Source: Oscillospiraceae bacterium
Lineage (GTDB): Bacteria; Bacillota; Clostridia; Oscillospirales; Oscillospiraceae
DNA length: 36,897 nt
Assembly: GCA_009783555.1 (NCBI GenBank)
Contig: WRDH01000030.1
Coordinates: 1-36,897 of the forward strand
Direction of reading: 5' to 3'
Both the position numbers and the translations under genes were made by a program. Position 1 is the stretch's first letter. The number at the start of each line of letters is the position of its first letter. The notes under the pieces are model-generated. The model saw nothing but the letters and a program-made list of their open reading frames with translations. It made no database searches and was not told the DNA's origin. Positions 7,294 to 13,511 of this stretch are shown here, piece by piece.

Positions 7294-8667
7294 ATGTTTG
7301 CAGGGCGGCAAAGTGAACTTATGAAGCTTGATGGTATATATGCAAGCGGTAAGTTCGAGTGTGTTATATTGCATGGGCGGCTTCGGACGGGCAAAACCGC
7401 ATTGCTGCGTGAGTTTATGAAAGGCAAAAACTGCATCTACTTTGCTGCGCAGGAAACAAGTGATCGCGAAAACCTTGAGGCTTTAACAAGCACCGTTAAT
7501 TCATTTCCAAAAGATATTGGAGAACCTGAGATTAAAAACTACTATGAAGAAGTCTTTGACAGGCTTCATAAGCTGGCGAAGTTGGAGCGTCTTGTTTTGA
7601 TAGTCGATAATTACCAGTTTCTTGTCGCATCAAATAAAAGCATTTCCGAAATGATTTGCAGGTGTATCGATCAAAAGCTTTTTGGCGGTCAGCTTATGTT
7701 GATACTATGCGGCTCATCAGAGGCTGTCATGGAAGAAGAAGCTTTGGGCTATGCATCACCGTTTCACGGAAAGAGGACGGCTCAAGTCAAGCTGCAGCCT
7801 CTGACTTTCTTTGAAGCAAAAAGGCATTATAGCGATTTTTCACCGTTTGACATAGCTGTGATATATGGCATTACAGGCGGGATACCCAAGTATTTGAACA
7901 TGATGGATTCGGAGTTATCCATTGAAGAGAATATCAAGAATACTTTCTTTGACCCTTCGTCGGAGTTATTTGAGGAGCCTGCTAATTTTCTGCGGCGTGA
8001 AGTCCGTGACCCTGCGTATTATAATGCGGTCCTTAAGGCAATTGCTTCAGGGCATATACAAAACTCAGAAATTGCAAAACAAGTCGGACTGGAAACGAGC
8101 GCATGTACCGCATACCTGAGAAATCTCATGTCTTTCGGACTTGTAAGCAAGCACACCCCAGTAACCGAAAAGGCCGGCAAAAAAACCATCTATGAGATTG
8201 ATGACAGTATGTTCCGGTTTTGGTACCGTTTTGTACCTGATAATTATTCACTAATTCAAAACCGGATGGCAGATAAAATATGGCGAAGCGTTGCGCAGGG
8301 TATTTCTTCATTTATGAGCAAGGTATTTGAAGACATTTGCCGTCAATGGGTCGACCAGCGCAATCAGGCAGGCAAAATGCCTGTCAGGTTCGTCGAGGTC
8401 GGTCGCTGGTGGGGTTATGATGTTGTGGGTAAAAACAACACATACATCCCGATTGTAGCATATTCAGACGATAACCATGTCTTTTTCGGTGACGCGTTTT
8501 GGTCAGATGAGCCAACAGACGAAGGTGCGCTACGCTCACTGGAAGAAAGAAGCAGACTTTTCAGATACCCGAACAGACACTTCTACCTCTTCTCCCGCTC
8601 AGGTTTTACAGATGACTGCGCGGAGCTGGCAAGGCAATATAATGCAAATTTAGTTGTTTTTGAGTGA
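7294..8667 (+). CDS. Archaeal-type ATPase with DUF234 domain
   Basis: 457 residues. Walker A is GRLRTGKT at 28-35. Walker B reads LVLIVDNYQFL with D105 followed by N106, where relatives usually have DE, so the hydrolytic glutamate is replaced. A winged-helix region is near 245-300 (NSEIAKQVGLETSACTAYLR). The DUF234 signature MFRFWYRFV follows at about 308-316, then GRWWGYDV at about 370. The PD-(D/E)XK-like active residues expected after that (E-I-D, then E-x-K) read IPIVAYS and GDAFWSDE, so the nuclease site looks degenerate. These proteins are common, poorly characterised, and usually taken as DNA-linked regulators or defence ATPases. It starts the accessory block after ricT. Confidence 0.85.
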   Translation: MFAGRQSELMKLDGIYASGKFECVILHGRLRTGKTALLREFMKGKNCIYFAAQETSDRENLEALTSTVNSFPKDIGEPEIKNYYEEVFDRLHKLAKLERLVLIVDNYQFLVASNKSISEMICRCIDQKLFGGQLMLILCGSSEAVMEEEALGYASPFHGKRTAQVKLQPLTFFEAKRHYSDFSPFDIAVIYGITGGIPKYLNMMDSELSIEENIKNTFFDPSSELFEEPANFLRREVRDPAYYNAVLKAIASGHIQNSEIAKQVGLETSACTAYLRNLMSFGLVSKHTPVTEKAGKKTIYEIDDSMFRFWYRFVPDNYSLIQNRMADKIWRSVAQGISSFMSKVFEDICRQWVDQRNQAGKMPVRFVEVGRWWGYDVVGKNNTYIPIVAYSDDNHVFFGDAFWSDEPTDEGALRSLEERSRLFRYPNRHFYLFSRSGFTDDCAELARQYNANLVVFE

Positions 8668-8781
8668 GAACATGCACCATAGTATGTGGCACACTATATT
8701 TATTCGGATTCGCTGTGTACACTGCAATATTATTATGTATTATTATGTTACTATGCGAAAAAAAAGAGGAGGTTCGATGAA

Positions 8782-10071
8782 GTGGATGTAAAATCAAAAA
8801 TCAGAAAACTAAATGAGCACATGGACAGGTTTTGGAAACTCAAAGATGAAAACAGGCCGAACAACTGGCGAATTGTTGAGTATGGAAATGATAGTTATGA
8901 GATTCGTTATTCCAAATATCTCAGATGGCTATTAGACCCCGGTGAAACTCATAATATAGGGGATTTTTTCGTTAGTGAGTTGTGGGCAGCGTTGGAAAAA
9001 AAAGCCGGCATTCAATCAAGCGATAAAAAAACGCAGTGGTCGGATAAAACAGAATCCGATTGTGAGGTATTCTACGAAGAGCCTCCGGATGAAAAAGAAA
9101 AAAAGCCTCGAAGGCGATTTATTGATGTTTTAGTCTATGACAAATCTTTTAACCGTTATCTTTGCATTGAGCTGAAGGTAACTTCCGACATTCATACCAA
9201 TCAACTGGAAAGTTATTCGGAATTTCTGAAAACAGAGGATCCATACGCAAAAGCAAGCGGATTGCTCGCATTCATTACACCCGACGGCTATAAACCGGAT
9301 AGAGGATGTTGGGATTCAAACTGGGTCTGTTTTTCATACTATGAGTTGTATGAAATATTAAGTTTTGTAGCAGATAAAATCGACAAAGAAAATAAGGATT
9401 TCCGACCTGATAGAAAAAAGCTGGTTTTGGACTTTAGGGATGACTTGTTTTATGTCTACGGAAAATTTTGCTGTCCTAAATTAGCGAAAGATATATGTCG
9501 TGTGCTAACCGATGAACAGCAGGTACGTGATGAAGTATCAGGTCTAAATCTGATTAATGGTGACACTGAGCGCCTCATTAAATATATTGAAGATAATCGA
9601 CAGGGTAATGATACGACACCAAGCATAGTCGGGCAGAAACTTATCAGGAAGATTTTTAATGACCTTGCTGCCGATAAGAGCATTGACTTAGAAGATCCCG
9701 ACAGCTTTATTAACCATAGTGAAGCTGAACGAACAAGCGATAAGGTTAGACAGGATGTATTTAAAAATGGTACTCTTGTTAAAGTACGCATTACCAATAA
9801 AAATAGAGGAAAAGCAGGTCAAGGCTTGAATCTTTTCTTTGAAAACTGTGAAGTTTACCTATCTGTCGGAAATGCCGCAGGGCTGGTTCTGTTTCCGAAC
9901 GACGGGATACAGTTCAGGCGTAAGAAAGGTGATAAGGGCGAGAAAGTACCCCTCAAAAGCAAAGAAGTACAAAAAGTTTATGATAACTATGAAGAGGAAA
10001 AAAAGAAGCTTTTCAAAAGTATCGATGATTTTCTCCCGGTTTTTTTATCAAATCAGAGCAATAAGGATTAG
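8782..10071 (+). CDS. PD-(D/E)XK nuclease superfamily protein
   Basis: 429 residues from GTG at 8782, chosen because AGGAGG (8767-8772) is spaced 9 bp from it; the frame extends upstream to 8686 without a better site. The N-terminal third has the pattern YEIRYSKYLRWLLDPGETHN. D115 (RRFIDVLVYD) and E130-x-K132 (LCIELKVT) then form the D...ExK metal site, followed by Q141 (TNQLESYSEF). This matches the PDDEXK_4-like group, whose members occur near restriction and defence genes. The remaining 280 residues are charged and have no domain I recognise. The gene ends inside the 3' end of the oppositely oriented RyR-like gene, overlapping by 59 bp. Nuclease activity is predicted from motif only. Confidence 0.82.
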   Translation: MDVKSKIRKLNEHMDRFWKLKDENRPNNWRIVEYGNDSYEIRYSKYLRWLLDPGETHNIGDFFVSELWAALEKKAGIQSSDKKTQWSDKTESDCEVFYEEPPDEKEKKPRRRFIDVLVYDKSFNRYLCIELKVTSDIHTNQLESYSEFLKTEDPYAKASGLLAFITPDGYKPDRGCWDSNWVCFSYYELYEILSFVADKIDKENKDFRPDRKKLVLDFRDDLFYVYGKFCCPKLAKDICRVLTDEQQVRDEVSGLNLINGDTERLIKYIEDNRQGNDTTPSIVGQKLIRKIFNDLAADKSIDLEDPDSFINHSEAERTSDKVRQDVFKNGTLVKVRITNKNRGKAGQGLNLFFENCEVYLSVGNAAGLVLFPNDGIQFRRKKGDKGEKVPLKSKEVQKVYDNYEEEKKKLFKSIDDFLPVFLSNQSNKD

Positions 10072-12187
10072 TGCAATAATTCTCTTTTGCGGATTTAAGT
10101 ATCCTTGGGATGTTTACGACAATATCCTTATCGCTTTTTTTGAAGTCTCTTTCCAAATCCGTTTTATACTTAGCCTTAAGGTCTTCGTCATCGCCGCAAA
10201 AAACTCCGGCGAGTGTTTTGTATGCATTGCTTACATTGTCGAGCTCATCCCATGTGGCAAGGCAAACGTGCTGCTTGCCTTTTGTATCGTGACGGGCATA
10301 CTCGAGCCGGCTCTTTAAGTTCTTTTCATTTTTCTGCTCCGGCTCGTTAAAGCGCGATATCATATCTTCTATGCTCATTTGCTTATATCCCATCGCAACA
10401 TGAAACGCATTCCATCGCAGATGCTCGGTTTTTCCAAGAGCCTCAATCAGATTCTCATCAACTGTTAAGCTGTTCATTTTTTCCGCCTGCTCTATTGAGA
10501 GATTTGAAAGCACCAGCATTGAGTTGATGAAATCCGCGGACGCGCGGCTGCTTTCCTGATGAAACCGCGAAATTTCATGCCAGCTTCTTTTCTTTGCTTC
10601 TTTATCCTTAGGGTCAATTCCTCTATAGGTACCATTGACGGTTATCGCCATATTATCTATTTCTTCGTTTACAATTATTTTCTCCGTGTAAATCTCCTCA
10701 ATGCAGCCAAAGCTGAAAATTTTCTCATCCTTGTTAAACATATGCGGCATTCCGTTTTCTTCATAAACAGCGATATACGGCATTGGATTCCCTTTACTAT
10801 TCCCCATTTCATAGCTGTGTTTTATGTATCTTGCCACTTCCCAGTCCTTTTCATCACTTGACAGAGCCACAACAACATAATCTATGTCTTTTCCCCAATT
10901 CTTCATGCAATCCGAAAACTTCTCGCATGGTACTTTCATATCCTCCGCCGGTATAACCTCACAGCAATTATCAAGCTCCGGGAGATCATTTTTGAAGCAG
11001 TGGAGTTTATCATTTGCTTCCTCATCAACAATAAAAACTCTAATAGGAACGGAGTTTGCCGGGTCCTTCATAAGAAACTGAGAATTCATCATAAAACGTA
11101 ATAGGGCACGACGTCCGATTGAGCCAAATCCAACCAGTAACAAAGTAAAAGGTCGCTCCGCTTTACCTGATACATCATAGTTCTCACAAATAAAACCCGG
11201 ACCCGGACAGTTAACAGGCGGATGTTCATTAATTACATTTCTTATCCGCAAATCATGCTCACTGATAATATGGAATGTATATATATACTTTCGCTTCGCG
11301 CTGCCTTCCTCTTTTATTGCTTGAGCGATTTCTATGATTTCTTCCCTGAACCACTCATGCTCGGTTATAGTATAGATATTGACGTTTTCGCGCCATTTTC
11401 GATTTACACGGCACTCACCCCGCTTATTTGGTTTGTCCGGTAAATCAACAATCTTCTTTACATTTTCCGGCATAGCGTTATCCCCGGGCATCAGGAAAAT
11501 ATTATACTCTGTCTTTTTTCGTAAAAAAGACGGAATCCACATTAATTTTCTGCGTATAATCTTTTTTAAATGATACTCAAGAATATGATTTCTGTCTATT
11601 ACCCTCACTATGCCGTTGAAATGAGCAGCTTTTTTACGAATGCTGTATTCATCGTCATCTTCATCAATCAGGAAAACTACAAGTCTGTCCTTCTTCGGCT
11701 TTTTCGTCGGATTATCTCCGGTCGCTATATTTTCCCCTAACACGAACGAGCGCTTGTCACAACCTTTAACTATATATACGTTTTTATATCTGCCAAAACG
11801 AATCCGAAAGCCATCGAGCAGCTTTCGTCCGAAAACAGATAATATGGCAATTTGTGCCAGCACCAGTGCAGCCAGGTGACATGCCCAAAACAGAATATGC
11901 AGCCATTCGTTATTTGTCGTCCATTGCAAAACCTCGTCACTATGAATTGCGATTAACATAGTAGCAAGACTGAAAAGCCCAAGCATTGCCGCATTTAATA
12001 CATCGGCACCATTCTCGCTCAAGAAGAGATAAAATACGGTATACAGAATAATTCCTGTCACTAAAAAAACTGCGCATATAGCAATAAGAATTCTTTTCAT
12101 CCGCTTGTGATTCATACAGTACATCACAGCGAAGAAAAAGATCGTGAAAATAGATACAAACAATAACGCAAATAGAAGGTTTGTCAT
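10013..12187 (-). CDS. 4-TM protein with Rossmann (TrkA-N-like) domains and RyR-like C-terminus
   Basis: 724 residues. Four hydrophobic helices are at about 2-22, 33-54, 62-82 and 96-118. A Rossmann-like segment follows at about 137-240 (KNVYIVKGCDKRSFVLGENIA, then VVFLIDED). A second, clearer one starts at 347 with a glycine-rich loop (LLVGFGSIGRRALL) and VFIVDEE. Near the C-terminus, ALGKTEHLRWNAFHVAMGY (584-602) and HVCLATWDEL (640-649) resemble the two halves of RyR domains found fused to TrkA-N modules in bacteria. The layout suggests a membrane effector or channel gated by a bound nucleotide. The start is supported by AAAGGAAG 8 bp upstream. The TIR gene lies 45 bp upstream on the same strand, implying one operon. 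RyR assignment is moderate; function is inferred. Confidence 0.75.
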   Translation of the reverse strand: MTNLLFALLFVSIFTIFFFAVMYCMNHKRMKRILIAICAVFLVTGIILYTVFYLFLSENGADVLNAAMLGLFSLATMLIAIHSDEVLQWTTNNEWLHILFWACHLAALVLAQIAILSVFGRKLLDGFRIRFGRYKNVYIVKGCDKRSFVLGENIATGDNPTKKPKKDRLVVFLIDEDDDEYSIRKKAAHFNGIVRVIDRNHILEYHLKKIIRRKLMWIPSFLRKKTEYNIFLMPGDNAMPENVKKIVDLPDKPNKRGECRVNRKWRENVNIYTITEHEWFREEIIEIAQAIKEEGSAKRKYIYTFHIISEHDLRIRNVINEHPPVNCPGPGFICENYDVSGKAERPFTLLLVGFGSIGRRALLRFMMNSQFLMKDPANSVPIRVFIVDEEANDKLHCFKNDLPELDNCCEVIPAEDMKVPCEKFSDCMKNWGKDIDYVVVALSSDEKDWEVARYIKHSYEMGNSKGNPMPYIAVYEENGMPHMFNKDEKIFSFGCIEEIYTEKIIVNEEIDNMAITVNGTYRGIDPKDKEAKKRSWHEISRFHQESSRASADFINSMLVLSNLSIEQAEKMNSLTVDENLIEALGKTEHLRWNAFHVAMGYKQMSIEDMISRFNEPEQKNEKNLKSRLEYARHDTKGKQHVCLATWDELDNVSNAYKTLAGVFCGDDEDLKAKYKTDLERDFKKSDKDIVVNIPRILKSAKENYCTNPYCSDLIKKPGENHRYF

Positions 12188-12232
12188 AACCGATAACTTC
12201 CTTTCATATGTTTTCGTTTCCTCCGGGTATTT

Positions 12233-13426
12233 CTATCCAAACAGCTTTGTGTCCAGCTCTTTAAATATATCCAGCATTTTTAAGAAATCTTCTTTTGTGA
12301 TTGCTTCCACGTTTTTTCCCTCGACCAGCTTTTGGGAAAACCATACATTAAAAAATCCCGGATTCGGCAAAGGTCTGTTTATTCGTGCAAATGCAGCCTC
12401 AAGCTCTTTCCTTATGAAGCTTTTTTCGTCATCGCTTGCATCCTGTGAGTTGCAGGATATTTCTACTTTGACCTTGTTTTTTGCGCCGACCTTGTATACC
12501 ACGCTGATATTCGGCGTATCCGGAGGATTGCTTGACATGCCTCCTACAAGCTTAAATGCTCTTTCCAAGTTTACGGTGGTAAACGCAACATAGTTTCCAT
12601 ATCCCTTAGATGGAGGCTTATAATCAGGAACATTTCGAATAATGTCCTTACCATCGCCATTTTCGGCATATTCCCAAAACCAATCGTTAACCCTCTTTCT
12701 GCCCTCTTCAATATCTGCGGAAACTTTTGATCTCTTGCACCCCGTTAAAGCACTTGTATCTTCGCGTTTTTCGGAATACAAAGCAGAAGTCTCATTATCT
12801 TTTTCCCTTTCAAAAACCCGGTGCTCCGGTACCGTTACCGATTCCGGCTTCAGTTCCAAAGGAATCTTAGCATCACCGCCAACATCGTCACGAATTATTA
12901 CTCCGCTAAGATCCTCTTTGTTTTTTATTACGCCCAACACAAGATTGTAAAAGTTAGGGTCCTTACGTGAATAGAAGGTGCGGTCCTTTACAAGCAAGTC
13001 GTCAAGGTAGTCGATTGCTTGACGCATATTATATATATCTCCTATATTGTCAACTATATCGTCATCCCTAAGTGCCTGTTTCAGAAAATCCTCAAAGTGT
13101 TTATCAATAAAGTTAACAATAAGAATTTCCACTCCCATTTGTTTTGCTTCCGCTATCTCGGCCTGCACATTTTTACTTGCCAGTGCTTTTGCCGAAGCAT
13201 AAAGCAGCAATAGCTTGCACCGTGCCTTTTGTATTGCTTTCAAAGCTTCATCCTGCCATCTTTCGCTGCCGACATGCTCCAGCTCCTTGTCACACCAAAT
13301 ATTCACGCCGTATTTGTGTTGAAATATTGCTATATCACTTTTGACAAGCTCCGCATCTTCCCTTTTATAGCTTATAAAAACATAAGGCTTGCTTTTGTCG
13401 CAGGGTATATACTCCATCGTTTCCAT
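12233..13426 (-). CDS. TIR-domain protein with unidentified C-terminal domain
   Basis: 397 residues. The N-terminus is a TIR_2-type domain (about 13-145): PYVFISYKREDAELV, then VNIWCDKELEHVGSERWQDEA, KLLLLYASAKAL and KNVQAEIAEAKQMGVEILIV. E90 is a candidate catalytic glutamate of an NAD-cleaving TIR. Residues 150-225 are a charged linker. Residues 226-397 form a compact, probably alpha/beta domain (NDWFWEYAENGDG; NYVAFTTVNLERAFKLVGG; KVKVEISCNSQD) that I do not recognise. AAAGGAAG lies 9 bp before the ATG, nearly the same site as in the next gene. Pairing with a membrane RyR-like protein suggests that TIR makes an NAD-derived signal sensed by the partner, or that both sense the same ligand. 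This is inference. Confidence 0.85.
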   Translation of the reverse strand: METMEYIPCDKSKPYVFISYKREDAELVKSDIAIFQHKYGVNIWCDKELEHVGSERWQDEALKAIQKARCKLLLLYASAKALASKNVQAEIAEAKQMGVEILIVNFIDKHFEDFLKQALRDDDIVDNIGDIYNMRQAIDYLDDLLVKDRTFYSRKDPNFYNLVLGVIKNKEDLSGVIIRDDVGGDAKIPLELKPESVTVPEHRVFEREKDNETSALYSEKREDTSALTGCKRSKVSADIEEGRKRVNDWFWEYAENGDGKDIIRNVPDYKPPSKGYGNYVAFTTVNLERAFKLVGGMSSNPPDTPNISVVYKVGAKNKVKVEISCNSQDASDDEKSFIRKELEAAFARINRPLPNPGFFNVWFSQKLVEGKNVEAITKEDFLKMLDIFKELDTKLFG

Positions 13427-13511
13427 CGCTTTAGCTTCCTTTCTTTTTTCTGTTATATAATGCTTGATACTACATAATTAATTTGGTAAAGCCAATGAAA
13501 ATACAGTGCTT

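Follow-up and report, generated by a model that had tools for sequence, protein, structure and literature searches.

A TIR gene paired with a pore-divergent, RyR-ended relative of K+ channels in an Oscillospiraceae bacterium: a candidate TIR-signalling immune module

In the described types of Thoeris, a ThsB-type TIR protein is combined with a ThsA-type effector (SIR2-SLOG or macro), and the product of the TIR protein activates the effector, whereby phage is blocked. Here we analyse a stretch of 36,897 nucleotides from an Oscillospiraceae bacterium (contig WRDH01000030.1 of assembly GCA_009783555.1; hereafter, the window), in which a TIR gene likewise stands beside an effector-like gene with a domain suited to an ADP-ribose (ADPR)-type signal, but the predicted partner is a channel-like membrane protein with RCK segments and a C-terminal ryanodine receptor (RyR) domain. 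The MthK/Kch-type RCK-gated K+ channels are built of a pore segment followed by tandem RCK/Rossmann segments; the window protein differs from them in lacking the selectivity filter and in carrying an extra N-terminal hydrophobic helix and the RyR domain. With the animal ryanodine receptors it has in common the presence of an RyR (R12) repeat in a channel-related protein, although the pore and the architecture differ and the R12 repeat alone is shared. The phage protein RyDEP falls into the same domain family by profile (RyR/R12, PF02026) and has the same residue types, H, W, H and D, at conserved positions; however, in a 2026 preprint (PMC13232231) RyDEP is reported to be an anti-defence enzyme of phage which hydrolyses cyclic ADPR (cADPR), whereas the RyR domain studied here forms the C-terminal part of a bacterial membrane protein whose gene neighbours a TIR gene. 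The reading that we favour, with a confidence slightly better than even, is that the pair constitutes a two-gene Thoeris-like immune module, whereby an ADPR messenger made by the TIR protein would be sensed by the RyR domain and would lead to the opening or breaking of the membrane.

The pair comprises the following features.
12233–13426, minus strand: TIR-domain gene, 397 amino acids (aa), with an N-terminal TIR domain and a C-terminal region of unassigned family (open reading frame, ORF; Pfam TIR_2, E = 1.1e-9)
13103–13381, minus strand: TIR domain, aa 16–108 (Pfam TIR_2)
13157–13159, minus strand: codon of E90, candidate catalytic glutamate (SKNVQAEI; alignment of TIR domains)
13435–13443, minus strand: ribosome-binding-site core GAAAGGAAG of the TIR gene
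12197–12205, minus strand: ribosome-binding-site core GAAAGGAAG of the membrane gene
10013–12187, minus strand: membrane gene, 724 aa, with an N-terminus like that of K+ channels but divergent in the pore, followed by two Rossmann (RCK/TrkA-like) segments and, at the C-terminus, an RyR domain
12122–12178, minus strand: hydrophobic helix 1, aa 4–22 (hydropathy)
12035–12091, minus strand: hydrophobic helix 2, aa 33–51, likely the outer pore helix, a role assigned by inference (hydropathy)
11945–12001, minus strand: aa 63–81, start of the equivalent of the pore helix and filter, TVGYGD being absent (window ATM-LIAIHSDEV; hydropathy and alignments)
11840–11896, minus strand: hydrophobic helix, aa 98–116, likely the inner pore helix, connecting to the first Rossmann segment
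11408–11782, minus strand: first Rossmann/RCK-like segment, about aa 136–260, limits approximate (MthK match, alignment with the K+ channel paralogue)
10748–11155, minus strand: second Rossmann/TrkA-N-like segment, about aa 345–480, limits approximate, with GxGxxG at aa 353–358
10088–10450, minus strand: RyR (R12)-like domain, about aa 580–700, with H589, W592, H640 and D686 (profile alignments)

The membrane gene lies downstream of the TIR gene across a gap of 45 bp (12188–12232), and the identical ribosome-binding-site core precedes the ATG by 8 nt in the TIR gene and 9 nt in the membrane gene, exactly as an initial annotation of the sequence, which had reported two same-strand genes 45 bp apart with near-identical ribosome-binding sites, would have it. 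A search of 60 related genomes (own included) recovered one other clear relative of the membrane protein (genome G027, 42% identity) and two weak ones, and a further relative was found on a Butyrivibrio plasmid, where the order is TIR gene, then membrane gene. A single-sequence search of genome contigs for relatives returned none, an alignment-based search being needed; an alignment of six proteins (A1) yielded 174 relatives in named genomes. The loci analysed below are those of the best 80 of these 174, with a membrane ORF recognised in 79 (L068, which had none, was left out; L017 lies on the same contig as G027/L009), and 62 of the 75 long ORFs were aligned with the window protein into 63 rows (A5). 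Within the order, 48 of 394 genomes have family matches, and across the phylum 9 of 299 do (own genome included in both). Carriage of the membrane gene by viruses was considered and rejected, no relative having been found in viral contigs or phage collections.

Pfam assigned no family to the window membrane protein on its own, and its architecture is therefore described here from the family alignment and profiles. The four transmembrane (TM) helices of the initial annotation correspond to four hydropathy peaks in the window protein, but in alignment with true K+ channels the window protein from aa 72 onward overlies their filter, so that three TM helices plus a pore-type segment are the likelier composition; among the 63 aligned proteins, three peaks were counted in 41 and four in 12. 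The two Rossmann-like segments of the same annotation were recovered. The second has a GxGxxG motif in which G353 is invariant and G355 and G358 are kept in at least 90% of the 63 proteins, and TrkA_N scored above its cut-off in one homologue (L010:3220-5199, E = 1e-5). The first is drawn from the alignment with K+ channel paralogues and from a weak match to MthK (3rbz, E = 0.006, profile positions 40–208), obtained when the full family profile was compared with 177,635 PDB sequences.

Many of the relatives adjoin a shorter paralogue of about 517 aa. The TVGYGD filter is present in 32 of the 36 family ORFs under 560 aa and in one of the 76 longer ones, and the four short paralogues scanned matched Ion_trans_2 of Pfam with E values from 1e-16 to 5e-10 and RyR with E values from 7e-8 to 3e-3 (three of the four over the PF02026 cut-off); TrkA_N was not called by Pfam in these four, and their Rossmann part is placed by profile alignment. 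The alignment of the long group with the short one runs from the filter through to the RyR domain (hhalign, P = 100, E = 4e-52). At the filter position, the window protein reads ATMLIAIHSDEV and most of the long proteins displayed have a sequence like RMFVGINELS, the K+ selectivity signature TxGYG being absent from the window protein and from all 63 aligned rows. Judging by sequence, the short paralogue is a true K+ channel, and, since the two profiles align from the filter on while the filter of the window protein is replaced, the window protein is best described as sister to an RCK-type K+ channel, diverged in its pore and ending in an RyR domain. Two family ORFs are encoded in 35 loci, 29 of which pair a filter-bearing short protein with one of the long kind by the length split (30 with L053).

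Several arrangements around these channel genes were noted in passing. A family of 795–1077-aa proteins adjoins K+ channel/RyR genes, and often TIR genes, in 10 loci (L035, L039, L044, L053, L062, L064, L065, L072, L076 and L085), with no Pfam match over cut-off in the two proteins scanned. At L010 (genome G056, contig 62), two RyR channel-like genes flank a gene which by eye is ClpA/FtsH-like AAA, in a large array whose other members encode an RyR protein, a short TIR protein and a TIR-FHA protein. A split version is seen at L173, on an Arcobacter plasmid (CP146529.1), as genes for an NAD-binding protein, an RyR-domain protein and a DUF4062 protein, flanked by an integrase gene and a recombinase gene, with a type I restriction gene nearby.

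The RyR-like C-terminus proposed in the initial annotation is confirmed at the level of the family: the C-terminal family profile, compared with the same PDB set, matched an RyR1 chimera (6uhi, E = 2e-8), RyR3 (3e-4) and an RyR domain from a bacterium (2e-3), and the family aligned with five stand-alone RyR proteins of bacteria at 95.7% (hhalign, E = 9e-9). The latter alignment puts H589, W592, H640 and D686 of the window protein over the canonical RyR positions, D686 being aligned after an insertion, and the invariant columns of the 63 proteins include EH-RW--F close to the C-terminus. All four residues are retained in 57 of the 63 rows, H589 in 63 and D686 in 62. According to the preprint, phage RyR-domain proteins bind TIR-type cADPR signals, and the RyDEP residues involved in ligand binding and catalysis with cADPR are H75, W78, H100 and D117, the catalytic ones being H75 and D117 (PMC13232231). 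We infer that H589, W592, H640 and D686 are the counterparts of these four, a correspondence drawn through the motif shared in the alignment with the bacterial RyR proteins. The same residues lend themselves to another interpretation, in which the RyR domain would be an eraser that hydrolyses cADPR as RyDEP does, and the membrane protein would end or limit the TIR signal; H589 and D686 indeed align with the positions that match the catalytic pair. However, the preprint reports that six of eight phage homologues tested bind the signals and that, in spite of high conservation, none of those other than the founding RyDEP hydrolyses them, so that the residues are no proof of catalysis (PMC13232231), and a hydrolytic role would not account for the presence of Rossmann segments and a channel-type pore in the same protein. 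We therefore regard an eraser role of the membrane protein as very unlikely.

Stand-alone RyR-domain genes of about 90–100 aa adjoin membrane or TIR genes in five places (L009:13015-13320, L010:2919-3203, L020:10024-10314, L080:9130-9408 and L086:7260-7523). Of 12 full-length stand-alone RyR genes, 8 have a family gene or a TIR gene within 1 kb, in genomes chosen for holding the family and measured, as were the control channels below, against the TIR and membrane rows picked for the genomes concerned. By analogy with phage RyDEP, such proteins could buffer or erase a signal. The one encoded at L009 matched 259 phage records; in two of these, both human fecal phages, the match covers 88% of the protein with an identity of about 60%.

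In the TIR protein, the TIR domain called by the initial annotation was recovered by TIR_2 with 39.3 bits, above the curated cut-off of 28. The matches to Thoeris models are weak (ThsB_TIR, 16.1 bits against a cut-off of 21.2; PADLOC ThsB, E = 6e-6). A glutamate occupies the column of E90 in 41 of 54 aligned TIR domains, a position which, from known TIR NADases, we take to be catalytic; catalysis by the window protein is thus possible, and it is a candidate NADase. Of the 13 domains that have no glutamate, 12 belong to TIR proteins of 280–330 aa, and 11 of these adjoin an intact TIR protein of 676–687 aa (L030, L039, L044, L053, L057, L062, L064, L065, L072, L085 and L089), an arrangement that suggests an enzyme with an inactive partner.

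The initial annotation had proposed a survey of homologues for co-occurrence and had named rare co-occurrence as a refutation; homologues of the membrane gene do in fact occur together with TIR genes. A TIR gene is present on the fetched stretch in 38 of the 79 loci; it is no more than three genes away from the membrane gene in 37, shares its operon chain in 31 and is its direct neighbour in 24. A further TIR gene, at L013, belongs to a different subfamily (PF10137, by Pfam) and was missed by the TIR profile, and the pairing counts are therefore lower bounds. In genome G027, the membrane gene is followed by the TIR gene and then by the RyR gene. In a second analysis, TIR_2 domains were located in the 48 family-holding genomes and their distances to family loci were counted in all but the window genome, with two TIR rows below cut-off omitted and tandem membrane copies within 12 kb merged. 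By the TIR matches listed, 7 of the 32 strong loci have a TIR gene within 3 kb, compared with 0.42 expected from TIR density, as do 9 of the 50 loci of any strength (0.57 expected); within 8 kb, the number is 14 of the 50 (1.26 expected). In a small control, none of the listed TIR genes comes within 8 kb of the 12 ordinary K+ channel pores listed in these genomes, where at most three candidates were scored per genome, and one of the 12 is within 8 kb of a family member. On a tree of the 63 proteins, the 30 with a TIR gene within three genes are spread across Bacillota, Spirochaetota and Bacteroidota, the label requires 14 changes (10 of them forced), and the clade of 8 that includes the window protein has 5 such members. 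The pairing thus recurs beyond chance, since relatives of the membrane gene adjoin TIR genes in other phyla as well; about half of the loci, on the other hand, have no nearby TIR gene.

This unpaired half matters for the interpretation that the family consists of general stress or ion-homeostasis channels, to which TIR genes are accidental neighbours in variable regions, with no immune unit formed. By profile, 41 of the 79 loci have no TIR gene on the fetched DNA (40 after L013), some of them ending at contig ends, and in a clade of 7 rows, mostly Clostridiaceae, there is none within three genes, so that the family can evidently serve without a neighbouring TIR. Moreover, TIR genes are common, being present in 41 of the 48 family-holding genomes and numbering six in the window genome (among the matches listed). 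Accidental proximity nevertheless fits poorly with the excess seen in other genomes, roughly seventeen-fold relative to TIR density (among the TIR matches listed), with the shared operon chain in 31 loci and the recurrence in three phyla, with the count of zero for ordinary K+ channel pores and with the lack of any comparable neighbour, no Pfam family occurring in more than 4 of the 97 other operon neighbours examined (out of 128 listed). A non-immune channel family is, in our judgement, quite unlikely.

The partner TIR genes do not form a single orthologous group: they vary in length and in added domains, which include Sel1, FHA, TPR and weak beta-propeller matches. Such variation might be expected of a set of effectors, and it is one ground for the converse assignment of roles, in which the membrane protein would be the sensor of a phage-caused membrane or nucleotide disturbance, and the TIR NADase the killer that depletes nicotinamide adenine dinucleotide (NAD+); the other is that RCK/TrkA-N segments are classical nucleotide or ion sensors. 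However, varied added domains suit sensors at least equally well, the RyR domain retains the messenger-binding residue set and the K+ channel paralogue resembles an output device. This inverted arrangement appears unlikely to us.

Besides the loci and the clade devoid of TIR neighbours and the heterogeneity of the TIR partners, several observations weigh against the two-gene module as we read it. The window membrane protein alone gave no PF02026 match at E ≤ 1, and its own genome gave none at E ≤ 0.001, which bears on its membership of the RyR family; conservation of the catalytic pair of RyDEP means that the domain could cleave instead of sense. The pore of the window protein has lost the K+ signature, so that any ion flux through it is hypothetical. 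No K+ channel paralogue was found in the window genome, among the three of four candidates scored in an assembly that is 92% complete. Outside its own genome, the window TIR protein was matched in the TIR domain only, not over its whole length (8 other genomes of 150), a search for its relatives on plasmids found none and PADLOC-DB 2.0 has no model that matches the window membrane protein at E ≤ 1.

Under the favoured reading of a two-gene immune module, infection would trigger the TIR protein, perhaps sensed through its C-terminal part, and the TIR protein would turn NAD+ into an ADPR-type messenger, probably a cADPR isomer. Binding of the messenger by the C-terminal RyR domain would be relayed through both Rossmann/RCK segments to the N-terminal membrane part, and opening or disruption of the membrane by this part would stop the cell before the phage matures; in relatives with an adjoining true K+ channel, the effector may be a K+-conducting or mixed channel. 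The suggestion of the initial annotation that a nucleotide made or recognised by the TIR protein acts on the membrane partner is thereby supported in part: the idea of a channel is strengthened because genuine K+ channels that likewise end in an RyR domain belong to the family, and that of a ligand because phage RyR-domain proteins are reported to bind TIR-type cADPR signals (PMC13232231).

As in the initial annotation, which could not match the pair to a named defence system, no PADLOC or NCBIfam model was found to cover the membrane protein: NCBIfam 20 gave a chance-level match for it (E = 0.53), and its relative L064:7116-8984 had no match in PADLOC or NCBIfam at E ≤ 0.001. No ThsA-type effector (SIR2-SLOG or macro) turned up among the neighbouring genes, either in the eight window proteins scanned with Pfam or in the four scanned with PADLOC and NCBIfam, the rest of the genome not having been searched; for this reason, we file the pair as a new variant of TIR-signalling immunity and not as a member of Thoeris. 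Among the matches listed in the literature searched, which was mainly open-access, no TIR/RyR channel system is described, although an earlier prediction may exist, and the sole publication there to tie RyR domains to TIR signals is the phage RyDEP preprint (PMC13232231).

On the other side of the membrane gene lies one further gene of interest.
8686–10071, plus strand: PDDEXK_4 nuclease gene (Pfam, E = 2e-17), convergent with the membrane gene and overlapping it by 59 bp
Among 200 genomes drawn from the taxonomic family, this nuclease was found in its own genome only, and it may have arrived together with the TIR/membrane pair. The membrane protein had no match in the 18 congeners searched, several of which are incomplete assemblies. 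PSP1 is present in 17 congeners in addition to the window genome; of ten congener stretches retrieved at this gene, six have an ATPase gene following it, and what comes after varies. Because the membrane protein is unmatched in congeners and the site downstream of PSP1 and the ATPase varies in the genus, the stretch from about 8686 to 13426, with the nuclease, membrane and TIR genes, looks like a lineage-specific insertion. The ATPase gene itself (ATPase_2/DUF234, 7294–8667) was rejected as a part of the system, as its homologue follows PSP1 in those six stretches at 63.8–78.6% identity; for the same reason, its match to the PADLOC candidate PDC-S27 may not necessarily signify defence here. 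A C-terminal domain common to the TIR and PDDEXK_4 proteins, suspected by eye, was unsupported (BLASTP E = 0.13; hhalign 0.2%). Elsewhere in the same genome (G000), on contig 17 (L008:8195-10684, minus strand), a second TIR gene, for a protein of 360 aa with 30% identity to that of the window, lies directly downstream of a PDDEXK_4 gene 42% identical to the one at 8686–10071, with no RyR channel gene seen adjoining them; this TIR/PDDEXK_4 partnership may be a separate variant.

The messenger reader is what separates TIR signalling systems from one another, and an RyR channel would add to them a new receptor and a new output, ion flux. More broadly, the observations are compatible with a bacterial TIR-to-channel immune pathway, in which cADPR made by TIR proteins would gate RCK-type channels, K+-selective or pore-divergent, through the RyR domain, with stand-alone RyR proteins buffering or erasing the signal; we advance this generalisation tentatively, and put its chances somewhat short of even. 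The pairing with genuine K+ channels predicts K+ loss upon TIR activation. If the pathway exists, phage RyDEP proteins could derive from captured parts of it, which would give the phage RyR anti-defence proteins a host-side origin. In animals, cADPR is an implicated modulator of ryanodine receptors, according to the same preprint (PMC13232231), and the TIR-to-channel pathway would, if real, be a prokaryotic counterpart of this debated link and would offer a small and testable bacterial model for the old dispute over whether cADPR binding by RyR domains governs a channel.

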